This document shows, piece after piece, positions 7,316 to 34,565 of a DNA stretch of 64,000 nt. Numbering within the stretch: position 1 is the stretch's first letter; each line of letters opens with the position of its first letter. The notes under the pieces were generated by a model. That model had not been told where the DNA came from, did no database searches, and saw only the letters and a program-made list of their open reading frames with translations. The stretch is from Pseudorhodoferax sp. Leaf267. Lineage in GTDB: Bacteria; Pseudomonadota; Gammaproteobacteria; Burkholderiales; Burkholderiaceae_C. The stretch covers positions 904,620 to 968,619 of the forward strand of contig NZ_LMMV01000001.1 in assembly GCF_001422405.1 (NCBI RefSeq), read 5' to 3'. Made by a program: the position numbers and the translations under genes.

Positions 7316-8196
7316 ACGCCTCGCCGCTGGCCGGCATCGCCCTGGTGCTGGCCGCCGTGGCCTGTTTCGCGGTGCTGGACATCACCACCAAGGCCATCAG
7401 CGCCAGCGTCCCGCTGCTGATGGCGCTGTGGTTCCGCTACGCCTTCCAGGCCATCGCCACCACCGTGCTCGTGCTGCCGCGCCACGGCCTGGCCCTGCTG
7501 CGCACGGCACACCCGAAGTTCCAGATCCTGCGCGGCCTGCTGCTGCTGGTGAGCAGCCTGCTGGCCTTCTTCAGCCTGCGCTTCATGCCGGTCGGCGAGT
7601 TCACCGCCATCGTCATGATCACGCCGCTGGTCATCACGCTGCTGGCGGCCTATGCGCTGGGCGAGCGTGTGTCGCCGCTGCGCTGGGCGCTGGTGCTGGG
7701 CGGTTTCGTCGGCACCATGGTCATCATCCGGCCGGGCGGCGAAGCCTTCGACTGGAAGCTGCTGCTGCCGCTGGCCCTGGTCGGCACGAACGCCTGCTTC
7801 CAGCTGCTGACCAGCAGGCTGGCCAAGACCGAGGCGCCCCTGACCACGCACCTGTACACGGGCTGGGTCGGCACGCTGCTGGCGTCGCTGTCCCTGCCCT
7901 TCGTCTGGGTGCACATCGAGAGCTGGCAACTATGGGCCGCACTGCTGCTGATGGGCTTGATGGCCACGGTGGGCCACTTCATGCTGATCCTGGGCTACGC
8001 GCGTGCGCCGGCGGCCACGCTCACGCCCTACCTGTACGGCCAGATCGGCTTCGCGATGCTGGGCGGCTGGCTCGTGTTCTCGCATGTGCCCGACCAGTGG
8101 GCCATGCTGGGCATGGCGCTGGTGGCCTTTTGCGGCGCTGCCGGCGCCTGGCTCACCGTGCGCGAAAGCCGCATCGGCCCTGCCACCACCCTGTAG
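7312..8196 (+). CDS. EamA/DMT-family transporter
   Basis: A 294-residue inner-membrane protein with about ten hydrophobic helices and two EamA repeats; the first repeat includes FFSLRFMPVGEFTAIVMITPL and the second YARAPAATLTPYLYGQIGFA. Start is GTG 7312, overlapping the previous stop (GTGA), which excludes the long upstream extension of the same frame. DMT proteins export small metabolites; the substrate is unknown. It sits inside a conserved run of housekeeping genes. Confidence 0.9.
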   Translation: MNASPLAGIALVLAAVACFAVLDITTKAISASVPLLMALWFRYAFQAIATTVLVLPRHGLALLRTAHPKFQILRGLLLLVSSLLAFFSLRFMPVGEFTAIVMITPLVITLLAAYALGERVSPLRWALVLGGFVGTMVIIRPGGEAFDWKLLLPLALVGTNACFQLLTSRLAKTEAPLTTHLYTGWVGTLLASLSLPFVWVHIESWQLWAALLLMGLMATVGHFMLILGYARAPAATLTPYLYGQIGFAMLGGWLVFSHVPDQWAMLGMALVAFCGAAGAWLTVRESRIGPATTL

Positions 8197-8209
8197 AGAC
8201 GACGACACC

Positions 8210-8845
8210 ATGGCCCAGTACTTCGAACTCCACCCCGAGAACCCGCAGGTGCGCCTGCTCAAGCAGACCGTGGCGCTGCTGGCCAAGGGCGACATCGTCG
8301 CCGTGCCCACGGATTCCAGCTACGCGCTGGTCTGCCACCTGGACGACAAGGCTGCCGTGGACCGCATGCGCCGCCTGCGCGGCGTGGACGAGCGCCACCA
8401 CCTGACGCTGCTGTGCCGCGACCTGTCCGAGCTGGCCAATTACGCACGGGTGGACAACAAGCAGTACCGCCTGCTCAAGTCCGCCACGCCCGGTGCCTAC
8501 ACCTTCATCCTGGAAGCCAGCAAGGAAGTGCCGCGCCGCGTGAGCCACCCTTCGCGCAAGACCATCGGCCTGCGCGTGCCCGACCATAAGGCGCTGCAGG
8601 AACTGCTGGCGCTGCACGGCGCGCCGCTCCTCGCCACGACCCTGATCCCGCCCGGCGAGACCGAGCCGCTGAACGACGCGCAGGACATCCGTGCGCGCTT
8701 CGAGCACCAGGTGGCCGCGGTGCTGGACGCCGGCGCCTGCCCTTCCGAACCCACCACCGTGGTCGACCTGACCACCATGGAACAAGGCGGCGACCCCACG
8801 GTCGTGCGCGAAGGCCGCGGCTCGCTGGCCGCGTTGGGGCTGTGA
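8210..8845 (+). CDS. yciO: YciO family protein (Sua5/YrdC fold)
   Basis: A 211-residue protein starting MAQYFELHPENPQVRLLKQT. It matches the E. coli YciO pattern closely: VPTDSSYAL, MCRDLSEL-like LLCRDLSELANY, EVPRRVSHPSRKTIGLRVPDH and PTTVVDLT. The KxR/SxN basic groove of the YrdC fold binds ATP and RNA. YciO relatives have been linked to threonylcarbamoyl-AMP chemistry, but the true tsaC function usually belongs to a different paralogue. The gene lies 13 bases after the exporter and 33 before the site-2 protease. Confidence 0.9.
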   Translation: MAQYFELHPENPQVRLLKQTVALLAKGDIVAVPTDSSYALVCHLDDKAAVDRMRRLRGVDERHHLTLLCRDLSELANYARVDNKQYRLLKSATPGAYTFILEASKEVPRRVSHPSRKTIGLRVPDHKALQELLALHGAPLLATTLIPPGETEPLNDAQDIRARFEHQVAAVLDAGACPSEPTTVVDLTTMEQGGDPTVVREGRGSLAALGL

Positions 8846-8878
8846 GCCCCCTGCAACCCCTCTGAGAGAATCCCGCCG

Positions 8879-9547
8879 GTGAATTTCGACAACCTGATCC
8901 AGAACCTGCTGATCTACGCGATCCCGGTCATCTTCGCCATCACCGTGCACGAGGCCGCGCACGGCTACGTGGCCCGGCACTACGGCGACAACACGGCCTA
9001 CATGCTGGGCCGCGTGACGCTGAACCCGATCAAGCACATCGACCCGCTGGGCACCATCGTGATGCCCATCATGCTGTACCTGGCGACCTCGGGCGCCTTC
9101 GTGTTCGGCTATGCCAAGCCGGTGCCGGTGCAGTTCGGCCGGCTGCGCAACCCCAAGCGCGACATGGTGTGGGTGGCCCTCGCCGGCCCCGGCGTGAACC
9201 TGGTGCAGGCCCTGATCTGGGGCATCGTGCTGTACCTGCTGGTCGGCATGGGCATCGATGAGCCCTTCTTCGTCAAGATGTGCCAGGCCGGCATGCTGGT
9301 CAACGTCGTGATGTTCGCGTTCAACCTGTTCCCGCTGCCGCCGCTCGATGGCGGCCGCGTGCTCGTGGGCCTGCTGCCCTACAAGCAGGCGGCACTGGTC
9401 TCGCGCGTGGAGCCCTGGGGCTTCTTTATCGTGATGGGCCTGGTGCTGGCGGGCGTGGTCGGCACGCTGTGGCTGCGCCCCATCATGGGCCTGACCTTCG
9501 GCTTCCTCGACATCCTGCTGAGCCCTCTTTCCTTTCTGATCCGCTGA
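8879..9547 (+). CDS. Site-2 protease family (M50) membrane protein
   Basis: A 222-residue integral membrane metalloprotease with GTG start. The zinc-binding HEAAH sits in helix 1 (AITVHEAAHGYVARH). The conserved NPIKHIDPLGT follows, and the third zinc ligand lies in NLFPLPPLDGGRVL near the C-terminus. This short form without PDZ domain is typical of the gene found beside trpS in Burkholderiales. Substrates are unknown. It overlaps no neighbour; trpS starts 7 bases downstream. Confidence 0.92.
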   Translation: MNFDNLIQNLLIYAIPVIFAITVHEAAHGYVARHYGDNTAYMLGRVTLNPIKHIDPLGTIVMPIMLYLATSGAFVFGYAKPVPVQFGRLRNPKRDMVWVALAGPGVNLVQALIWGIVLYLLVGMGIDEPFFVKMCQAGMLVNVVMFAFNLFPLPPLDGGRVLVGLLPYKQAALVSRVEPWGFFIVMGLVLAGVVGTLWLRPIMGLTFGFLDILLSPLSFLIR

Positions 9548-9554
9548 GACCACC

Positions 9555-10901
9555 ATGACCACGCTGCGCGTTCTGACCGGTATCACCACCTCGGGCACGC
9601 CCCACCTGGGCAACTACGTCGGCGCCGTGCGGCCCTCCGTGCGTGCCAGCCAGGCGGCCGGCACCGAGAGCTTCTACTTCCTGGCCGACTACCACGCGCT
9701 GATCAAGGTCGACGACCCGCAGCGCATCCAGCGCTCCACACTGGAGATCGCCGCCACCTGGCTGGCCGCCGGCCTGGACCCGGAGCGCGTGACCTTCTAC
9801 CGCCAGTCCGACATCCCCGAGATTCCCGAGCTCACCTGGTTCCTGACCTGCGTGACCGGCAAGGGCATCCTGAACCGCGCCCACGCCTACAAGGCCGCGG
9901 TGGACCGCAACAACGCCGCCGGTAGCGACGTGGATGCCGACGTGACGGCCGGCCTGTTCATGTACCCGGTGCTGATGGCCGCCGACATCCTGCTCTTCAA
10001 CGCGCACAAGGTGCCCGTGGGCCGCGACCAGGTGCAGCACATCGAGATGGCGCGCGACATCGCGCAGCGCTTCAACCACCTGTATGGCGAGCACTTCACG
10101 CTGCCCGAGGCCGCCATCGAGGAGAGCGTCGCCACCTTGCCCGGTCTGGATGGCCGCAAGATGAGCAAGAGCTACGACAACACCATCCCCCTGTTCGCGC
10201 CGCGCGAGCAGCTGAAAAAGCTGATCGCCGGCATCGTGACCGACTCGCGCGGCCCCGGCGAGCCCAAGAGCTCCGAAGGCTCGGCGCTGTTCCAGATCTA
10301 CCAGGCCTTCGCCGACGCGCAGGAGACCGAGGCGCTGCGCCAGGCCTTCGCCGACGGCATCTCCTGGGCCGATGCCAAGCAGGCCCTCTTCGAGCGCGTG
10401 GACCGCGAGATCGCGCCGATGCGCGCGGCCTACCAGGGCTACATGGAAGACCCGGCCCAGGTCGAACGCGTACTGCTCGCCGGCGCGCAGAAAGCCAGGC
10501 GCATCTCCGCCCCGTTCACGACCAGCCTGCGGGCCGCCGTCGGCTTGCGCAGGCTCGAAAGTTCAGGGGGCACGGCCAAGGCCGCCAGGAAGGCGAAGGC
10601 CGGCGGGCCTGCCTTCAAGCAATACCGCGAAGCCGATGGCCAGTTCTATTTCAAGCTGGTCGATGCCACTGGCGTTTTGCTGCTGCAAAGCCATGGCTTT
10701 GCCTCGCCCAAGGAAGCGGGCCAGGCCATTGCGCGGCTGACCGGCGAAGGGGCGGCGGCGCTGGTGGCCCTGGCGCCACTGCTGCACACCACTGCCGATG
10801 GCGCTCTGGCGGCATTGGCCCAGTTGGCAGCGCCCAAGGCCGACCCGAACTCGGTGGCCGGCGAAGAAGACCCCGGTGCCGCCGGCGACGTTCAGCTCTG
10901 A
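9555..10901 (+). CDS. trpS: Tryptophan-tRNA ligase with C-terminal YegP-like extension
   Basis: Charges tRNA-Trp. The class I core has the HIGH-equivalent TPHLGNYVG near residue 15 and KMSKS at residues 202-206. The protein is 448 residues, against about 330 for bacterial TrpS. The extra part, from about residue 350, reads FKQYREADGQFYFKLVD and then LLLQSHGFASPKEAGQAI. This resembles the beta-strand repeat of YegP/DUF1508 proteins. An alanine-rich linker joins the two. Its 3' end overlaps the convergent OsmC gene by ten bases. The extension's role is unknown. Confidence 0.93.
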   Translation: MTTLRVLTGITTSGTPHLGNYVGAVRPSVRASQAAGTESFYFLADYHALIKVDDPQRIQRSTLEIAATWLAAGLDPERVTFYRQSDIPEIPELTWFLTCVTGKGILNRAHAYKAAVDRNNAAGSDVDADVTAGLFMYPVLMAADILLFNAHKVPVGRDQVQHIEMARDIAQRFNHLYGEHFTLPEAAIEESVATLPGLDGRKMSKSYDNTIPLFAPREQLKKLIAGIVTDSRGPGEPKSSEGSALFQIYQAFADAQETEALRQAFADGISWADAKQALFERVDREIAPMRAAYQGYMEDPAQVERVLLAGAQKARRISAPFTTSLRAAVGLRRLESSGGTAKAARKAKAGGPAFKQYREADGQFYFKLVDATGVLLLQSHGFASPKEAGQAIARLTGEGAAALVALAPLLHTTADGALAALAQLAAPKADPNSVAGEEDPGAAGDVQL

Positions 10902-22365: not shown

Positions 22366-25300
22366 ATGCGCGCGCAACAATCACGCATGGATACAACTTC
22401 GGGCTTCTTGCCGGTCGGCAGCCGCTTCGGCGATTTCACCGTGCTGGAGCGGCTGCATGAAAGCCAGCGCTCCGTGGTGTTGCGCTGCCTGGACGCCAGC
22501 GGGCGCAAGGTCGTCAAGTTCCTGCGCGCCGCGGCACCCAGCCCCGGCGAGGTGGCGCGCTTTCGGCGCGAGTTCGAGCTGTCGCGCCGCCTGGCCCATG
22601 CGCACGTGGTCAGCGCCACGGCCATGGGCAGCCACGAAGGCCTGCTGTTCATGGCCATGCCCGACGACAACGCCGTCGCCCTGCGCGACCTGCTGCAGGG
22701 CCACGCGCTGCCGGCCCGGCAGGCCCTGCAGGCGGCCATTGCCGTAGTCCAGGCGCTGGAGGCCGTGCATGCGCGCAACGTGGTGCACAAGGACATCGCG
22801 CCCGGCAACATCGTGGCCAACTTCGCGGCCGGCACGGTCAAGCTGATCGACTTCGGCATCGCGGCCGAGCTGTCCAGCGAACGCCCGGAGCTGGCCCGCC
22901 CCGAGGACCTGGAAGGCACGCTGTCCACCATGGCGCCCGAGCAAAGCGGCCGCATGAACCGCGACGTGGACTACCGCGCCGATTTCTATGCACTGGGCGC
23001 CACGCTGTTCGAGCTGCTGACCGGCGAGCCGCCGCTGCGCTACGCCGACCCGCTGGAAGCCGTGCATGCCCACCTCACGCACCAGCCGCGCCGGGTGACC
23101 GAGCTGCAGCCCACGCTGGCGCCGCTGCTGGCCGACCTGGTCGCCAAGCTGCTGGCCAAGGAGCCCGGGGCGCGCTACCAGAGCCACGTGGCGCTGCAGC
23201 GCGACCTGGCCTACATCCTGGCGCACCTGGACACACCCGATGCACTGGTGGGCTACCCGCTGGCGGCCAACGACCTGTCGGCGCGTCTGCAGGTGTCGGG
23301 CCTGCTGTACGGCCGCTGCGCGCAGGTCGGCCGCATGCTGGATGCGTTTACGGCGGCGGCGCGCGGCACGGCGCAGCTGGTCACGGTCGCCGGCTTCTCG
23401 GGCATCGGCAAGACGGCGCTGGTGCACGAGCTGCAAACGGCGCTGCTGGGCAGCCATGGCCACTTCATCAGCGGCAAGTTCAACCAGTTCGGCCAGCATG
23501 CGCCGTACGCGGCGTTCACGGCGGCATTGCAGCAGCGCGGGCGCCAGGTGCTGGCCCTGCATGCCGACGAGCAGCAGCGCTGGCGTGCGGCGCTGCTGCA
23601 GGCGCTGGGCGCCAATGCGGCCCTGGTGGCGGATGCCGTGCCCGATCTGGCGCGGCTGCTGGGACCGCTGCCCGCCGTGTTGCCGCTCGGCCCCACCGAG
23701 GCCGAGAACCGTGTCGTGCGCAGCCTGCAGCAGTGCATCGCCGCGCTGGCCGCGGCCGATGCGCCGCTGGTGCTGTTCATCGACGACCTGCAGTGGGCCG
23801 ACCGCGCCTCGCGCCGCCTGCTGCGCGAGCTGGCGCTGGACGAGGGCCTGCGCCATGTGCTCCTGATCGGTGCCTACCGCTCCAACGAGGTGCCCGCCGA
23901 CCACCCGCTGGCGCAGGACCTGCAGCTCTTCGCGGCCCTCGGCCCGCGCGCGCTGGCCCTGCAGATCGGCCCGCTGCAACTGGAGGACACGCGCCGCCTG
24001 CTGGCCGACACGCTGCACAGCACGCCCGAGGCCGTGGACGCCCTGGCCGTGCTGTGCCAGGCCAAGACCGGCGGCAACCCCTTCTTCCTGCGCCGCTTCG
24101 TGCAGGACGTGGCCCGGCGCGGGCTGATCTGGCTGGACCGCGGCGCGGCGCGCTGGTGCTGGGCGATCGAACGCATCCAGGCCGAGCGCATGGCCGACAA
24201 CGTGGTCGACCTGATGGTCGAGCAGCTGCGGCGCCTGCCGGCCGACACGGCGCGGCTGCTGACCACGGCCGCCTGCCTGGGCACGCACTTCGAGCTCGCG
24301 GCGCTGGCCACGGTCAGCGGGCAGGACGAGCATGCCGTGCTGCAGGCGCTGCGCCCGGCGCTGGAAGCCGGCCTGCTGGTGCCGGACGACGCGCGCTACA
24401 AGTGGGTGGCCGTGCTCGACGCCGCCGAGCGCGCCGGCCTGCACGTGGGCCTGGGCTTCGCGCACGACCGCGTGCAGGAGGCCGCCTATTCGCTGGCCGG
24501 TGCGGCCGAGCGCCCGGCCCTGCACCTGCGCATCGGCCGGCTGCTGCGCAGCGGCATCGACCCGCAGCGCCCGCCCTTCGACGTGGTCAACCACCTGAAC
24601 CTGGGCGTGGACGTGATGGACAGCCCGGCCGAACGCGCCGACCTGGCCGCCCTGAATGCCCGCGCCTCCGGCCTGGCCCAGGACGCGGCCGCCTTCGAGC
24701 TGGCCGCGCACTACGCCGACCGCGCCATCGCGCTGCACGGCCCCGCGGCCTGGCAGGCCGACCCGGCAGGCGCGCTGGTGCTGCACGCCCACGCCGCGCG
24801 CATGGCCTACCTGGGCGGCCAGCCCGAGCGCATGGAGATGCTGCTGCAGACGGCGCTGCCCCATGCGCACGCGCCGCTGGAGCAGGCACGGCTGATGGAC
24901 GTGCGCATCGAGTCGTTCTACGCCGCGGGCCAGCTGCCAGCCACGCTGGACCAGGGCCTGGCCGCGCTGGGCCTGCTCGGCCTGGCGCTGCCGGCCGCCG
25001 CCTCGCCGCAGGACGTGGTGGCCCTGGTGGCGGCCGTCAAGCAGGAAATCGAGGCCATGGGCCTGGCGGCGCTGGCCGCCCGGCCGCCGATGCACGATGC
25101 GCTATGCCTGCAGCAGCACAGCATCATCGCCAAGATGACGGCCGCCGCCTATATTGCACGCCCGGCCCTGCTGCCGCTGCTGACGGTGGTGCAGGTGCGA
25201 TCGATGATGGCGCACGGCCACGCGCCGGCCGCGCTGTCGGCCTACTCGGTCATGGGGCTCATGGCGGTCGAGTTCCTGGGCGACACGCCGTTCGGCTATG

Positions 25301-27768
25301 CGCTGGGCCGCATGTCCATGGACCTCATCGAGCGCCACGGCTGGCGCCAGGTGCAGGCGCATGCCGGCTTTTCGTTCAATGCCTTCCTGCGCCACTGGGT
25401 CGAGCCCGTCGCGGCCGGGCTACCCGCGCTGCTGGCCGTCAACGAGAACGGCCAGGAGTTCGGCAACCTGCGCCACCCCGGCCTGGCGCTGTATGTGCAC
25501 GGGGTCCATGCGCTGCTGGCCGGCGAGCCGCTGGCCGAGCTCGCCCCGCAGCTGGAAGCCCATGCGGCCACGCTGCGCCGCATCCGCCAGCCCGTCGCGC
25601 ACGACTACCTGTGGGTGCTGCGCGAGACCGTGTACGCGCTCCAGCAGCAGCAGCTCGATGCCGCGCCGCTGGAGAACGCGCGCTTTTCCATGCGCGAGCT
25701 GCGGCAGACCTACGAGGCCCGCAGCGACCAGACCGGCGCGATGTTCCTGCATGCCTTCGCCGGCCTGCTGCATGGCCTGGCCGGCCGCCATGCCCAGGCC
25801 GAGTCCGAGGGCCTTGCCGCGATGGCGCTGTTCCCGGCCGGCCGCGGCATGTCCATCCAGCCGTACTGCGTGTTCTTCACGGCCACCGCCGCGCTGGCTC
25901 TGGCACGGCAGGACGAAGCCGGCGACGCGGCCCCGGCATCGGCACAGCGGCGCAGCCAGGTGGCCGCCGCGCTGGCGCGCCTGCAGCACTGGGCGCAGCA
26001 CAACACCGAACTGGCTCCGCTGTGGCGGCTGCTGCGCGCCGGCCAGGCCCTGCTGGACGACGACCGTGCCCAGGTACGCGCCGAGCTGCAGGCCGCATCG
26101 CAGGCCGCCGCGCCACAGGGCAACCTGTTCCTGCGCGGCGTGGTGCACTGGCAGCGCGCGCTGCTGCTGGCCAGCCTGGGCGACACAGGCGCGCGGGTGG
26201 AACGCGCCGAGGCGCGCACGGCCTTCCTGCGCTGGGGCGCACGCGCCCTGACCGAGGCGCTGGCCGAGCCGCCCACGGTGCCACCGCCGCATGCCCTGCA
26301 GCTCAGCCTGCACAGCACCTCGGCCGGCAGCCAGGCGCTGGACCTGGTCACGCTGATGAAGGCCGTGCAGGCCGTGACCGCGCAGACCGCGCTGGGCCCG
26401 CTGCTCGAGCGCATGCTGCATGTGCTGCGCGAGAACGCGGGCGCGCAGCGCGTGGCCATCGTGCTGCAGGACGCCGAGGGCTGGACGCTGCAGGCCGACA
26501 GCGCCGGCACCGGGCCGGCGCGGCCCATGGAAGCCGCGGGCGATGCCCTGCCGCTGCCCATGCTGCGCACGGCGCTGAACACCGGCAGCCCGGTGCTCAT
26601 CGACGACCTGCCGGGCGATGCGCGCTGGCAGCGGCTGGAGTACTTCGTGCGCGTCGGCGGGCGTTCCGTGCTGTGCATGCCGCTGGTGCAGCAGGCCCAG
26701 GTGGTGGGCGCGCTCTACCTGGAAAACGGCGCCGTGGCCGCGGCCTTCTCGCCGCAGCGCATGGAGTTCCTGCACCTGCTGTCGGGCAACGTGGTCAATG
26801 CGATCGACAACGCCCGCCTGGTGCAGCAACTGCGGGTGCAGGCCGAGACGCTGGAGCAGCGCGTGGCCGAGCGCACGCGCGAGCTGCGCGACAGCGAGGC
26901 CCGCACGCTGAGCATCCTGCAGAACGCGCCGGTGCCGATGACGGTCACCCGCCGCAGCGACGGCGTGCTGGTCTACGTGAACGCGCCAGCCGCGGCCGCG
27001 GTGGGCTTCACGCAGGCCACGCTGATGGGAAAGCCGGCGCAGACGCGCTACCGCGACCCGGCCGACCGCGCGCGGCTGTTCGCCCAGTACCGGCGCCAGG
27101 GCGTGCTGCGCGATGCCGAAGCCTGCCTGCTGACGCAGGACGGCCAGGAGCGCTGGACGCTGATCTCTCTGGTGCCCATCGTCTACGACGGCGAAGCTGC
27201 GGACCTGGCCACCATCATCGACATCACCGAACGCAAGGCCATGGAGGAAGCGCTGCGCCGCCTGGCCACGACCGACGCACTGACCGGCGTCAGCAGCCGC
27301 GGGCACTTCATGCACTGCACGGCCAGCGAGGTGGAGCGTGCCCAGCGCTACGGCCGGCCGCTGGCCATGCTGATGCTGGACATCGACCACTTCAAGAAGA
27401 TCAACGACCGCCACGGCCACTCGGGCGGCGACGCGGCGATCCGCGGGCTGACGGTGGCCTGCGCCGACATGGTCCGGCACCAGGACCTGGTCGGGCGCCT
27501 GGGCGGCGAGGAGTTCGGCATCCTGATGCCCGAGACCGACCTGGACGCGGCCTACCTGCTGGCCGAGCGCCTGCGCGCCCACATCGCGGCGCTGGATGTC
27601 GCGCTGCCCGACCACGGCGAGATCCGCATGACGGCCAGCTTCGGCGTGAGCGCGCTGCGCGATGGCGACGACGTGGAGCAGCTGATCGCGCGCGCCGACC
27701 GGGCGCTGTACGCATCCAAGCACGGCGGGCGCAACCGGGTCAGCCTGCAGACGCCGGTCGCGGGTTGA
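22366..27768 (+). CDS. Giant signalling protein: Ser/Thr kinase, AAA ATPase, GAF, PAS, GGDEF
   Basis: An 1800-residue multidomain protein. A protein kinase domain (about residues 20-285) has Lys51 in VVKFLR, HKD at 141-143, DFG at 162-164 and APE at 190-192, so it looks active. An AAA/STAND ATPase follows, with Walker A GFSGIGKT at 343-350 and Walker B LVLFIDDLQWAD at about 468. Next come a long helical repeat region to about 1330, a GAF domain (about 1345-1485), a coiled coil, a PAS domain (about 1515-1625) and a diguanylate cyclase with GGEEF at 1713-1717 and an RHQD inhibitory site five residues before it. The usual homologues end in a histidine kinase. It lies 12 bases after pssA and has no signal peptide. 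Start could also be ATG 22387. Confidence 0.9.
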   Translation: MRAQQSRMDTTSGFLPVGSRFGDFTVLERLHESQRSVVLRCLDASGRKVVKFLRAAAPSPGEVARFRREFELSRRLAHAHVVSATAMGSHEGLLFMAMPDDNAVALRDLLQGHALPARQALQAAIAVVQALEAVHARNVVHKDIAPGNIVANFAAGTVKLIDFGIAAELSSERPELARPEDLEGTLSTMAPEQSGRMNRDVDYRADFYALGATLFELLTGEPPLRYADPLEAVHAHLTHQPRRVTELQPTLAPLLADLVAKLLAKEPGARYQSHVALQRDLAYILAHLDTPDALVGYPLAANDLSARLQVSGLLYGRCAQVGRMLDAFTAAARGTAQLVTVAGFSGIGKTALVHELQTALLGSHGHFISGKFNQFGQHAPYAAFTAALQQRGRQVLALHADEQQRWRAALLQALGANAALVADAVPDLARLLGPLPAVLPLGPTEAENRVVRSLQQCIAALAAADAPLVLFIDDLQWADRASRRLLRELALDEGLRHVLLIGAYRSNEVPADHPLAQDLQLFAALGPRALALQIGPLQLEDTRRLLADTLHSTPEAVDALAVLCQAKTGGNPFFLRRFVQDVARRGLIWLDRGAARWCWAIERIQAERMADNVVDLMVEQLRRLPADTARLLTTAACLGTHFELAALATVSGQDEHAVLQALRPALEAGLLVPDDARYKWVAVLDAAERAGLHVGLGFAHDRVQEAAYSLAGAAERPALHLRIGRLLRSGIDPQRPPFDVVNHLNLGVDVMDSPAERADLAALNARASGLAQDAAAFELAAHYADRAIALHGPAAWQADPAGALVLHAHAARMAYLGGQPERMEMLLQTALPHAHAPLEQARLMDVRIESFYAAGQLPATLDQGLAALGLLGLALPAAASPQDVVALVAAVKQEIEAMGLAALAARPPMHDALCLQQHSIIAKMTAAAYIARPALLPLLTVVQVRSMMAHGHAPAALSAYSVMGLMAVEFLGDTPFGYALGRMSMDLIERHGWRQVQAHAGFSFNAFLRHWVEPVAAGLPALLAVNENGQEFGNLRHPGLALYVHGVHALLAGEPLAELAPQLEAHAATLRRIRQPVAHDYLWVLRETVYALQQQQLDAAPLENARFSMRELRQTYEARSDQTGAMFLHAFAGLLHGLAGRHAQAESEGLAAMALFPAGRGMSIQPYCVFFTATAALALARQDEAGDAAPASAQRRSQVAAALARLQHWAQHNTELAPLWRLLRAGQALLDDDRAQVRAELQAASQAAAPQGNLFLRGVVHWQRALLLASLGDTGARVERAEARTAFLRWGARALTEALAEPPTVPPPHALQLSLHSTSAGSQALDLVTLMKAVQAVTAQTALGPLLERMLHVLRENAGAQRVAIVLQDAEGWTLQADSAGTGPARPMEAAGDALPLPMLRTALNTGSPVLIDDLPGDARWQRLEYFVRVGGRSVLCMPLVQQAQVVGALYLENGAVAAAFSPQRMEFLHLLSGNVVNAIDNARLVQQLRVQAETLEQRVAERTRELRDSEARTLSILQNAPVPMTVTRRSDGVLVYVNAPAAAAVGFTQATLMGKPAQTRYRDPADRARLFAQYRRQGVLRDAEACLLTQDGQERWTLISLVPIVYDGEAADLATIIDITERKAMEEALRRLATTDALTGVSSRGHFMHCTASEVERAQRYGRPLAMLMLDIDHFKKINDRHGHSGGDAAIRGLTVACADMVRHQDLVGRLGGEEFGILMPETDLDAAYLLAERLRAHIAALDVALPDHGEIRMTASFGVSALRDGDDVEQLIARADRALYASKHGGRNRVSLQTPVAG

Positions 27769-30490: not shown

Positions 30491-31459
30491 TCAGGCCAGT
30501 GCGCTGCTGATGGCCAGCGCGCCATTGACGCCGGCGGGGTAGAAACCACCGCGCGACACCGCGCCCGGGTTCAGGTAGACGATGTTGAGCACATCGCCGG
30601 GCGAGCGGCTGTAGGCGATGCCGTTCGCATCGGTGGGCACGATGTTGGACATGTCGTTCATGCCCGTCACGCCCTGGTCCACGTCGGTGCTGGCGTCCAG
30701 GCTGTCACGCGCGCCGGAGATGGCATCGGTGGCCGTGCGCAGGGCCGGCGTCGCCAGGCCCTTCGAATACAGCACCGTGCGCACCAGGCCGGCGTGGTAG
30801 GCCTCGACCGCCAGGATGCCGGCGGCGGCTTCCAGGAAGGTCTTGTTCTGGATCAGCGGCGAGGCGCCCTTGTAGGCGGTGACGCCCACGTCTTCGAAGA
30901 TGTAGGCGGCCAGCAGGAAGTTCTCGTCGCTGGCGTAGGGGTCGAAGGACTGGCCCGCGCCGACGAGCCCGGCCGCGCGCGCCGCGCTGGAGAAGGCGCC
31001 ATTCGGGTCGGAGCCGATGTCAATGGCCGGCTGCGCCACGGCCGAGGCGCCCAGCGCCGTGCGCAGGAAGGCCACGTGGGCGATCTCGTCCTGTGCGATC
31101 TCCTTGGCGTACTGGCGCACGATGGGGTCGGTGAAGGTGACGGCACGGCCGCCGGTGACGGCGCCCTGCGTGCCTGTGCCGCCGAGCTGCGATGCCGGCA
31201 GGCCCACGCCCGTGGCGGCATAGGCATAGAACTGCGCCTCCAGGTATTCCAGGTTCAGCGCGAAGTTCAGCACGTCGGCGTCCGACACCTCGTTGGCCTG
31301 CGCATTGGAGTCGCTGGAGCCGCCGCCGCAGGCGGTCAGGATGGCGCCGCCAGCGACACCGGCCGCGAACCCGCTGGTCTTGCGGAAGAAGGCACGCCGT
31401 TCGGCGCGGCGCGTGGCGATCTCGGTGACCTGGTTGCGTGTGAGAAAGTGACCCAGCAT
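30491..31459 (-). CDS. Ferritin-like domain protein with Tat/lipoprotein-type signal
   Basis: A 322-residue exported protein. The N-terminus contains [20 protein letters not shown] and then [10 protein letters not shown]. It therefore has a twin-arginine-like stretch followed by a possible lipobox. The mature part is a ferritin-like four-helix protein of the desiccation-related (PCC13-62-like) type, with [40 protein letters not shown] and [13 protein letters not shown] carrying the Glu/His metal ligands. Family roles include desiccation and oxidative stress protection. Start ATG 31459 has AAGGAG eight bases upstream. Confidence 0.85.
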
Positions 31460-31738
31460 GGAAAGCTCCTTTTCATGCGGACGCATGACCCCCTCGGGGA
31501 CCACCGATCCGCTCTTGCCTAGACAGGCGCTCGCGAGAGCCGCGAACGAACCTTGGCAACGTGCGTTGGTGTTCGGTGCAGGACCGGCGATCCAATGGAC
31601 GCGTTGTCCTCCGCAAGTACGCGGGCGGCTGTGGATCCGGATCAGCGCCTTCGAGTAGGACAGTGCCGCGTCCCTGATGTTTCGGCGCCGGCCGCCCTGC
31701 GACACCGCGCGGCGAATCCATCCACCGCCACGACAACC

Positions 31739-32038
31739 ATGCCGTCACTGCCCAACGCATCCATGGACGACGGTGCCGGGCCAGGCTCCCAGGCCCTGCC
31801 CTCGGTCGACCGCCTGCTGCGCGCCCCCGGCGCTGCCACGCTCACCGTGGTCCACACCAACCTGGGCCGCGCGCTGATGGCCGACCGGCAGGCGCATGGC
31901 TCAGCGCATCGCGCCGCTGCTGGCGCAGGCCGATCTCGAAGGCAGTTGGAGTACTTAGACCGCCTCGGCCTGCTGCGCCGCGTGGGCGACGTGTACGGCA
32001 TGCGCACCGACAGCGCGCTGTTCACCGACGGCGGCTGA
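31739..32038 (+). pseudogene. Relic joining selA-like and selB-like fragments
   Basis: A 99-codon frame with two recognisable scraps. Near its start LPSVDRLLR matches the SelA N-terminus (E. coli LPAIDRLLR). Directly after it TVVHTNLGRAL matches a SelA segment that normally lies about 65 residues later (VLHTNLGRAL). The last part, QLEYLDRLGLLRRVGDVYG then RTDSALF, resembles the SelB C-terminal winged helix (DRxGxTRRVGD...). It thus looks like selA and selB collapsed by deletion into one small frame. It is followed nine bases later by a degenerate tRNA-Sec-like sequence. Family matches are from memory. Confidence 0.6.
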
Positions 32039-32047
32039 CACGCATCG

Positions 32048-32139
32048 GGAAGCGTGCCTGGTGGCACGGCCGGGCTTCAAACCCGGTGGGTGACGTCACG
32101 CGTCGCCGGGTGGCTTCGACTCCCACTCCCGTGCGCCCA
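32048..32139 (+). tRNA. selC: Degenerate tRNA-Sec (selC)-like sequence, anticodon TCA
   Basis: The 5' end GGAAGCGT, a perfect five-pair anticodon stem CCGGG/CCCGG around loop CTTCAAA (anticodon TCA at 32077-32079), a seven-pair long variable arm GGTGACG/CGTCGCC and a CTTCGACTCCCAC T-loop region are all tRNA-Sec features. Damage is visible. The D stem has only four pairs, the last T-stem pair is C:C where G:C is near-invariant, and the 3' strand (CTCCCGTGC before GCCCA) no longer pairs with GGAAGCGT. It is therefore probably a dead selC. It lies just after the selB-like scrap, as in many selAB-selC loci. Confidence 0.6.
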
Positions 32140-32426
32140 TCCAACTGTCTGCGACGCCAACCAACGCGGCACGGAAAACCGCGCGCGGCGCTGTGGCAAA
32201 GGCGGGTTTCCGTACGCCGCGCAGGGAATAGGCGGGTTTGTAATGTGTTTGTAATCAACGGCTTACGAAGAGCCTCGACCGCCAGAACGCCTGGCACAGG
32301 AACTGCAATTTGTTACGCGCTCCCGCCCCCTGCCGTTCACCCGGCAGAGGCGGTCGCCGAACCCCCAGGGCCGACTGCGGATGCCGCAGGGCCGCCACCT
32401 GTTCCATGTCGAGGAGTTAGCGTTAG
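32140..32426 (+). other. Leader region of the carboxypeptidase gene
   Basis: About 290 bases without a gene. It holds the sigma-54-type promoter listed separately and, near 32412-32417, GAGGAG upstream of ATG 32427. The part before the promoter contains nothing recognised. Confidence 0.5.
32291..32308 (+). promoter_or_regulatory. Sigma-54-type (-24/-12) promoter
   Basis: CTGGCACAGGAACTGCAA has the GG (32293-32294) and GC (32305-32306) dinucleotides separated by ten bases within TGGCAC...TGCA, matching the RpoN consensus. It lies about 120 bases before the M14 carboxypeptidase start and probably drives the GlyGly-CTERM cassette. No enhancer-binding protein gene is nearby. Confidence 0.65.
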
Positions 32427-34565
32427 ATGACACGATTCAATCCGCCCCGCCTGACCCCGGTCGCAGCCATCGTGGCCGCCGTCGTACTGGCCAGCGCCTC
32501 ATGGGCCATCCATGCCCACGGCAGCGACGATGCCACCGTCGACATCTATTCGGTGAAGATCGGCTACGCGTCCGAAGAGCAACTGTCCAAGATGACGGCC
32601 ATGCTGGACCACCCCTATGTGGACCAGAAGAGCCGGCTCATCCACGCCGAGATCGGCCCCGACGAGCTCAAGGCCATCCAGGCCCTGGGATACACGGTGC
32701 AGATCGACCAGGCCGAGACCGAGCGCATCCAGAACTGGGTGGCCTCGCGCGAGCGCGACCTGAAGTCGGGCGCACTGACCCGCATCGACCGTGAGAAGCC
32801 CAGCTCGATCGCCGACGGCGTGCACGCGTGCTACCGCACGATGGAGCAGACCTACGCGACCTTCGACGAGCTCAAGGCCAAGTACCCGGAGCTGGTGCAG
32901 GTCAAGACGCTGGGCCCGGCTTGGATGAAGACGCAGATCAAGGCGCCGACCGTCGTCAACAACCAGTACGACAACTCCTCGTCCAGCTACACCAGCCTGC
33001 TGGCCAAGTTCCTGCCGGCCGCGTGGCTGCAGCGCTTCAACCTGGCGCTGTTCCCCGAGCAGCCGCATGACGTGAAGGCCATCGTCGTCGGCAACTTCAA
33101 GAAGCAGGAAGGCAAGGAAGTGCCGCGCATGGTCTGGACCGGCGGCATCCACGCCCGTGAGTACGCACCGCAGGAGGTGGGCACCAAGTTCATCGAGTGG
33201 CTGCTGGACAACTACGGCAAGGACGCCAACGCCACGATGATGCTGGACAACAACCAGTTCCACTACATCATCCACAACCCCGACGGCCGCAAGCTGGCCG
33301 AGCAGGACCGCGCCGCCCGCCAGCGCAAGAACACCAACTACACGACCGCGTTCTGCACCAACACGACCGGCAACGGCCCGCTGGGCTCGGGCGTGGACCT
33401 GAACCGCAACTACCCGTTCGGCTGGGCCACCGGCGGCGCGGGCGGCTCGGACGGCAACATCTGCGGCGAGACCTTCCGCGGCACGGGCCCGGCGTCCGAG
33501 CCGGAAACCCAGGCGGTGCTGAACTACGTGCGCGGCACCTGGAACCAGGCGCAGTGCAAATGGGAAGGCGGCGCGCTGCCCGACGGCCGGCCCAAGAGCG
33601 CCGAGTACTGCAACCCGGAAAACCGTTCGACCATCACCGGCGAGCTGGACTGGACGACAGGTGCCTCCGAGGAATACCCGGGCGGCATGTTCATCGACCT
33701 GCACAGCAACGCGCGCGCCATCCTGTGGCCCTGGGGCGTGGAGCGCACCGAGAACGGCTTCAACACCCATTCGCCCAACAACAAGGGCATGGCCGTGATC
33801 GCCCAGCGCCTGGCCTACCACAACAACTACTCGTCGCAGCAGCTGCTCAGCTACAACACCGAAGGCACGACCAAGGACGCGTTCTACGGCTTCCTGGGTG
33901 CGCCCTCGTACACGGTGGAAATGGGCCGCTCGTTCTACGAGGACTGCGGCGTGTTCGAGCGCGAGACCAATCCCGAGAACTTCAACGGCTTTCACTACCT
34001 GAGCCGCACGCTGCACCGCATCTACCAGCTGCCGTTCGGGCCGGACACGGTGGACGTGCAGGTCGCGCAGACCAACCCGGTCGATGCCGGCACCAAGGTG
34101 CAGGTCTCCGCGCTGGTGGACGACAACCGCTACCGCTACAGCAACGCGGGCCAGTCCACGATCAAGCCGCCACCCTACCCCGTGGTCTACAACGTGACCG
34201 AGGCCTATGCCTACATCGGCAAGCTGCCCTGGGAAGCGGGCGCCGAAGCGGTGCGCGTCAAGCTGGACCTGAGCGCTTCGGACAAGGCGCGTGACGACTT
34301 CCCCGACGCGACCAAGCGCGCATCGGGCGAACTCAACACCGCCGGCCTGGCCGCCGGACGCCACATGGTCTACGTGCAGGGTGTGAACAGCGACGGCAAG
34401 CCCGGCGCGCTGTCTGCGGCCTTCCTGGACATCGCCGAGCCCGCGCAGGCCGAGCCCAAGAGCGGTGGCGGCGCCCTGGGCGGCCTGGTCGCCGTGCTGG
34501 GCGGCCTGGCCGCCATCGGCCTGCAGCGCCGCCGCAAGGCCGCCGCGCAGGACGACGCACGCTGA
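32427..34565 (+). CDS. Secreted M14 zinc carboxypeptidase with GlyGly-CTERM tail
   Basis: A 712-residue exported peptidase. The signal peptide is MTRFNPPRLTPVAAIVAAVV with cleavage near AIHAHG. The M14 zinc site is His242 and Glu245 in GGIHAREYAPQE and His426 in FIDLHSNARAILWPWG; the catalytic Glu498 is in YTVEMGRSFYEDC. The C-terminus has SGGGALGGLVAVLGGLAAIG followed by QRRRK. This Gly-rich, hydrophobic, basic order is the GlyGly-CTERM signal recognised by rhombosortase, and an rrtA-like gene lies 1.9 kb downstream. It probably removes C-terminal residues from peptides outside the cell. Confidence 0.9.
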   Translation: MTRFNPPRLTPVAAIVAAVVLASASWAIHAHGSDDATVDIYSVKIGYASEEQLSKMTAMLDHPYVDQKSRLIHAEIGPDELKAIQALGYTVQIDQAETERIQNWVASRERDLKSGALTRIDREKPSSIADGVHACYRTMEQTYATFDELKAKYPELVQVKTLGPAWMKTQIKAPTVVNNQYDNSSSSYTSLLAKFLPAAWLQRFNLALFPEQPHDVKAIVVGNFKKQEGKEVPRMVWTGGIHAREYAPQEVGTKFIEWLLDNYGKDANATMMLDNNQFHYIIHNPDGRKLAEQDRAARQRKNTNYTTAFCTNTTGNGPLGSGVDLNRNYPFGWATGGAGGSDGNICGETFRGTGPASEPETQAVLNYVRGTWNQAQCKWEGGALPDGRPKSAEYCNPENRSTITGELDWTTGASEEYPGGMFIDLHSNARAILWPWGVERTENGFNTHSPNNKGMAVIAQRLAYHNNYSSQQLLSYNTEGTTKDAFYGFLGAPSYTVEMGRSFYEDCGVFERETNPENFNGFHYLSRTLHRIYQLPFGPDTVDVQVAQTNPVDAGTKVQVSALVDDNRYRYSNAGQSTIKPPPYPVVYNVTEAYAYIGKLPWEAGAEAVRVKLDLSASDKARDDFPDATKRASGELNTAGLAAGRHMVYVQGVNSDGKPGALSAAFLDIAEPAQAEPKSGGGALGGLVAVLGGLAAIGLQRRRKAAAQDDAR

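Follow-up and report, generated by a model that had tools for sequence, protein, structure and literature searches.

Loss of the selenocysteine (Sec)-decoding trait occurs across bacteria (PMC1794560), and the closest described cases are in Yersinia and Helicobacter. Yersinia pestis CO92 and Mediaevalis have lost the trait with a frameshift in selB, but they retain selA, selC and selD (Romero et al. 2005, PMC1273633). Both in Y. pestis and in the genome described here, the Sec machinery is dead, selC has persisted, and so has a formate dehydrogenase gene with a UGA codon. The two cases differ in that several deletions have here reduced selA and selB to scraps and the fdh operon has collapsed as well. 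In Helicobacter pylori and H. acinonychis, one part has likewise outlived the trait: SelA is found without other sel genes, free of frameshifts but with its N-terminal domain lost, and a new function has been argued for it (PMC4607533). In contrast to Helicobacter, the survivor here is the tRNA, which carries a lesion, while the protein genes are reduced to scraps. An orphan SelD has also been described (PMC5029168). Among the matches listed in a literature search over titles and abstract openings, with many subscription papers outside its coverage, the present case was absent. Loss of the Sec trait is already known, and this locus is a clean new instance of it and not a new kind of event.

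Having compared the locus with intact relatives and with the rest of its genome, we read it as a selA-selB-selC operon reduced to a remnant, in a bacterium of Pseudorhodoferax type that no longer decodes Sec, with a probability of about 95%. Within the window (the whole 64-kb stretch of DNA that was analysed), the segment 31749-32138 contains two selA scraps, two selB scraps and a near-complete selC, in the same order as in relatives (Table 1). The initial annotation had recognized a 99-codon frame with sel scraps and proposed a locus in mid-deletion. The proposal was borne out by the comparison with relatives and the frame does hold such scraps; they number four instead of three, and an out-of-frame selB piece had been overlooked. 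With four protein scraps, one of them out of frame, the 99-codon frame must be open by chance. On the right flank, DNA similarity to nine named genomes starts at 32403-32607. Within 31460-32402, similarity to related genomes begins just 5' of the M14 peptidase, and the fossil lies at the edge of a conserved block. Elsewhere in the window, an 1800-codon open frame (22366-27768) appears by eye to be a fused serine/threonine kinase, ATPase and GGDEF sensor protein.

Table 1 Features of the fossil sel locus and its neighbours (positions within the window)
Feature	Position	Strand	Evidence
selA scrap 1 (SelA start, motif LPSVDRLLR)	31749..31842	+	DNA match, tblastn, Pfam
selA scrap 2 (TVVHTNLGRAL, catalytic-domain start)	31843..31889	+	DNA matches, Pfam
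selB scrap 1 (MAQRIAPLLAQADLEGSW; different reading frame)	31890..31946	+	SelB alignments and DNA position; least certain scrap
selB scrap 2 (C-terminal end and stop codon, LEYLDRLGLLRRVGDVYGMRTDSALFTDGG)	31947..32038	+	DNA match contiguous with selC, tblastn, Pfam
selC (tRNA-Sec, anticodon UCA, long variable arm, G73 at 32135; light damage)	32042..32137	+	ARAGORN, RF01852, fold, 47 relatives
Extra T bulging from the acceptor stem of selC	32045	+	Minimum-energy fold; spacing versus relatives
C at tRNA position 53, T-stem pair with C61 (32122) broken	32114	+	47 relatives compared
Chance open frame, 99 codons, spanning the four scraps	31739..32038	+	Pfam matches; internal SelB scrap out of frame
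Left neighbour, ferritin-like protein (Ferritin_2), outside the fossil	30491..31459	-	Pfam PF13668, 1.2e-47
Right neighbour, zinc carboxypeptidase M14, outside the fossil	32427..34565	+	Pfam PF00246

The protein scraps were identified by profile, translated and DNA searches. The 99-codon frame gave colinear Pfam matches to Se-cys_synth_N (E 6.7e-4), SelA (0.012) and SelB-wing_3 (1.2e-3), each scoring under its own gathering score, and it matched the NCBIfam selA model at E 0.0056. When 21 SelA and 21 SelB proteins of relatives were searched by tblastn against the whole 64-kb window, the best E-values were 7.5e-10 for the SelB end and 1.9e-4 for the SelA start. In a DNA search covering 399 same-family genomes, 31949-32138 matched the selB end and selC of relatives as a single block (78% in the best non-self match, E 1e-36). 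Two separate pieces of selA lying 5' of that block were matched as well. In the first, 31775-31835 matched the intact locus L162 at 89% and 31749-31827 matched L161 at 75%; the second, at about 31843-31885, was matched in all 22 intact loci at 75-95%. The earlier identification of LPSVDRLLR as a SelA N-terminal motif, of VVHTNLGRAL as a later SelA motif and of a SelB C-terminal-like segment was upheld by these matches. For the internal SelB scrap, the best tblastn E-values were only 0.001-0.003, with top matches outside the fossil at 0.001-0.004, and nine of the 21 SelB proteins aligned at 31890..31946 with E from 0.001 to 5.8. We accepted this scrap because of the position of its DNA match, which lies about 300 bases 5' of the selB-end block in five of the 22 intact loci (L145, L149, L150, L154 and L162), and not because of its E-value.

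Measured against relatives, about 190-210 nt of selA are absent between scraps 1 and 2, and about 2.6 kb is gone just 5' of selB scrap 1 (relative to L149). The distance from selA scrap 2 to the selB-end block is 104 bases here versus 2.9 kb in L146. About 290 bases remain of the roughly 3.3 kb of selA and selB (L149 as the reference), a loss of roughly nine tenths. A tRNA-like sequence standing by chance next to an unrelated small frame would agree with the shortness of the motifs and with Pfam scores that are all sub-threshold; however, the scraps and selC stand in conserved order, the scraps being colinear in the ancestral gene order when compared with the 22 intact loci, and DNA identity reaches 89-95% in the best selA matches, alongside the E of 1e-36 for the selB-selC block. 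Chance similarity was therefore ruled out by the DNA block match and the ordered scrap matches, and its probability is practically negligible.

ARAGORN reported selC as the single tRNA gene in the window, a tRNA-Sec with anticodon TCA, and the covariance check with Rfam RF01852 gave 65.4 bits (E 4.2e-12; gathering score 47), in agreement with the original call of a tRNA-Sec with a TCA anticodon and a long variable arm. The UCA anticodon, the long variable arm and G73 were all present. A complete acceptor/T stem of 8+5 pairs was not found: the 8-pair acceptor is bulged and 53-61 is C.C. The same call had placed the tRNA start at GGAAGCG, which lies at 32048-32054, the real start being 32042, and had described the acceptor as ruined; in the minimum-energy fold, GCA(U)CGGGA forms eight pairs with UCCCGUGC, with one bulge. 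Its description of the T stem as ruined was right in that the pair C53.C61 is broken, G-C in all 47 relatives, but the damage to the tRNA was overstated. From the acceptor start to the D loop there are 18 bases here versus 17 in 46 of the 47 relatives, the remaining one not being measurable in that way. These 47 distinct relatives exclude G042, G098 and G165 (L255-L257), whose tRNA-Sec was unreported by ARAGORN, and count L114 and L268, which are the same genome, once; in every one of them the acceptor begins with GG, pairs 2 and 53-61 are G-C and position 73 is G. The fossil gene keeps G73 and has C at position 53 opposite C61. Its acceptor pairs 2 and 4 are both C-G, with both sides changed, pair 4 in relatives being A-T (27), G-C (18) or G-T (2). 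With random flanks, four Watson-Crick outer pairs arose in 0.7% of draws without a bulge and in 2.8% with at most one bulge; with G-U allowed, the values were 4.1% and 13.1%.

By comparison with these relatives, the clear lesion is the one broken T-stem pair (53-61), and the tRNA is lightly damaged and not ruined as judged from its sequence. We infer that the acceptor stem drifted while the tRNA was functional and that the damage came later. Two other candidate signs of decay were rejected. The non-CCA 3' end is no lesion, as an encoded CCA is missing in 18 of the 47 relatives. The low tRNA score is no proof of decay, as G145 scores only 64.4 although its SelA and SECIS both exceed their cut-offs; three further SelA-bearing genomes have tRNA-Sec at 67.6-67.9 bits, and the other 51 of the 52 family genomes with a tRNA-Sec over cut-off span 64.4-85 bits with RF01852. 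One acceptor mismatch occurs in 5/47 relatives. Bulged acceptor bases are also reported for tRNA-Sec genes in genomes that have the Sec machinery (PMC5330540). Unusually divergent tRNA-Sec genes were also seen at L254 (G145) and L270 (G199), both in genomes that keep SelA and SECIS_3.

The condition of selC raises the alternative that, during the decay of selA and selB, the tRNA was kept and recruited for another use, for example to read UGA when charged with serine or to give rise to tRNA fragments. Its near-wholeness beside the loss of about nine tenths of selA and selB, a cloverleaf that still folds with an 8-pair acceptor, the retained G73 and the two-sided changes at acceptor pairs 2 and 4, with the chance frequencies given above, all speak for such recruitment. 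However, the T-stem pair G53-C61 that is invariant in relatives is broken, a 96-base gene is a small target whose survival is expected, and the SECIS element, useless alone, survives equally well elsewhere in the genome; the compensated changes could predate the loss, and the fold is weaker than in two intact relatives (-51.3 versus -59.6 and -58.9 kcal/mol). In a folding control of three sequences, a cloverleaf was obtained for the window gene and L133 and none for the intact L129, so single-strand folding alone decides little. We consider recruitment very unlikely. It is just as doubtful that the orphan tRNA-Sec would still be transcribed and used, its acceptor rebuilt on both sides unlike those of the 47 relatives, in a new role, such as inserting serine at UGA or acting as a regulatory RNA.

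The reading as a dead operon is supported by the rest of the genome, in which a search for intact sel genes found no SelA and neither a SelB nor a second tRNA-Sec over the cut-off. SelA had no match at E 0.001, in a search that was blind to the scraps too; the best SelB match reached 185.8 bits against a cut-off of 242.25; and a tRNA-Sec over the cut-off was found only at this locus. No SelB exceeded the cut-off in any of the six genomes of the genus, and the sub-cut-off SelB matches of 185-187 bits, which recur in two congeners, are most likely elongation factor Tu. A second functional copy was thus excluded for this assembly by the SelA, SelB and tRNA-Sec searches; as the assembly is a 27-contig draft (completeness 100%, contamination 1.03%), an unassembled second sel copy is a remote possibility. 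SelD is present (433 bits, 365-aa open frame) and carries HGGGCGCK near its start, which we take to be the cysteine form. MnmH exceeded the cut-off in all six genus genomes. For the selenouridine trait, both SelD and MnmH are present, and their retention fits selenouridine use. For the Sec-decoding trait, SelD was found, and SelA, SelB and an intact selenoprotein gene with SECIS were not (SECIS_3 search).

The decisive evidence for Sec loss is a wrecked FdhA. The search for a UGA formate dehydrogenase, suggested at the outset, located one that is also broken: formate dehydrogenase-N alpha lies in pieces, some with stops, at G000:C12:35890-37213. Compared with eight intact genes, this remnant shows clear homology between about codons 35 and 468, with both ends missing, and contains three frameshifting deletions of 1, 2 and 5 nt; a fourth (2 nt, alignment column 97) was left uncounted because it borders the unaligned N-terminal part. 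Its sole in-frame stop is the TGA at codon 196, which is also TGA in the intact L177, and at this codon SECIS_3 scored 80.3 bits (cut-off 63), the one match in the genome. FdhH residues 192-295 (beta) follow directly after the remnant, and then FdhI residues 70-208 (gamma). Viewed as a whole, the stretch L174 (G000:C12:28000-46000) has at about 7900-9920 a collapsed fdh operon, in which large internal deletions join alpha, beta and gamma scraps. No fdhE scraps were found at E 0.05 in the window or in L174 among the matches listed. A second formate dehydrogenase alpha, of another family (TIGR01591), is full-length without an in-frame stop (930.8 bits).

Two further explanations bear on these genome-wide results. 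Assembly error or contamination would be favoured by the draft state of the 27 contigs; however, the completeness and contamination values given above speak against it, and both fossils lie inside long contigs (at least 968 kb for sel, 1.05 Mb for fdh), flanked by ordinary genes, which makes this explanation scarcely credible. The locus could also be a partial duplicate or a fragment gained by horizontal transfer, the working Sec system being encoded elsewhere in the genome, as might be suggested by the five congeners, all without a tRNA-Sec over the cut-off, and by a left flank without synteny to the nine loci examined. Neither SelA nor SelB exceeds its cut-off, tRNA-Sec occurs only here and the Sec formate dehydrogenase is broken as well, which argue against a duplicate or acquired fragment and leave it extremely unlikely. 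Neither of the two outcomes named beforehand as contrary to a fossil operon occurred: the scraps do resemble SelA and SelB, and no second copy was found.

We then set the fossil against its family. In G018 (L110), beta, gamma, FdhE, SelA and SelB lie ahead of selC (NCBIfam, each over at least one cut-off of its kind), with alpha upstream and tRNA-Sec downstream. Alpha lies upstream in all eight longer loci, and tRNA-Sec is downstream of selA in 14 of the 20 stretches around selA, being farther away or on a different contig in some of the others; the selA-selB-selC order, put forward as conserved, is therefore common and not universal. Family members with an intact fdh alpha-beta-gamma-fdhE-selA-selB-selC cluster, for example G018 and L178, have the same genes in the same order as the fossil, whereas here the fdh and sel parts are each broken and stand on separate contigs. 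The fossil resembles such a cluster after collapse.

Among 200 family genomes, SelA exceeded the cut-off in 50, all of which also have tRNA-Sec. A tRNA-Sec over the cut-off was found in 52 (a tally over the same genome set with stricter filters), the two without SelA being this genome and G138. SECIS_3 exceeded the cut-off in 47 of the 200, namely 46 with SelA and this one, which alone has SECIS without SelA. G138 (L253) likewise has a tRNA-Sec (79.8 bits) without a SelA match, but its tRNA pairs are complete and it has no SECIS_3 match; it represents either an earlier stage of loss or an assembly break. By eye, selB at L253 (G138:C27:1-16000, about 120-2040) lacks a start and adjoins the contig end, where the adjacent sequence looks like what we assume to be the end of an insertion element. 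Sub-threshold SECIS_3 matches were also seen at G184:C1:401116-401174 (43.6 bits) and G174:C8:33055-33113 (43.1 bits), in genomes without a listed SelA or tRNA-Sec; they are possibly relics in formate dehydrogenases that have switched to cysteine. Closer to the fossil, tRNA-Sec stays under the cut-off or is absent in all five congeners (Variovorax boronicumulans DE0202, Pseudorhodoferax sp. Leaf265, Pseudorhodoferax sp. Leaf274, P. soli and P. aquiterrae), leaving this genome as the only one of six in the genus with a tRNA-Sec over the cut-off. In all five, the DNA of 31450-32430 gives only short matches of about 28-77 bases, and L086-L094 showed no DNA match to 31700-32150 at E 1e-5.

The timing of the loss was assessed from FdhA divergence, with the N-terminal part that does not align left out of the counts. 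Between the remnant and five intact FdhA genes, the differences at codon positions 1, 2 and 3 are 0.23-0.26, 0.18-0.20 and 0.32-0.40; between three more distant intact FdhA genes and the same five, they are 0.24-0.27, 0.15-0.17 and 0.30-0.41. Second positions on which all five agree number 368; the remnant departs from them at 45 and the distant genes at 32, 36 and 33. This divergence points to a mostly constrained history with late relaxation; fast FdhA evolution before the death of the gene may be an alternative. The initial annotation had inferred a recent loss of Sec coding. The loss itself is supported, and the FdhA divergence supports "recent" in relative terms only.

Taken together, the two fossils would fit a course in which the Sec-dependent formate dehydrogenase became dispensable, the genome keeping the full-length formate dehydrogenase alpha of another family, and selection on both loci ended. 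Internal deletions would have taken the long genes fastest, and the 96-base tRNA and the SECIS would have lasted longer because they are small targets. SelD would have been kept because MnmH still needs selenophosphate for tRNA selenouridine. Sec loss is usually recognized only because the genes are missing. In this genome, remains of the decoding genes, the decoder tRNA and the UGA enzyme have all survived, and they show how an expanded genetic code comes to be lost: long genes vanish by internal deletion while the tRNA and SECIS persist. For automated annotation, the locus is also a warning that Sec use is not proven by a tRNA-Sec scoring above the cut-off.
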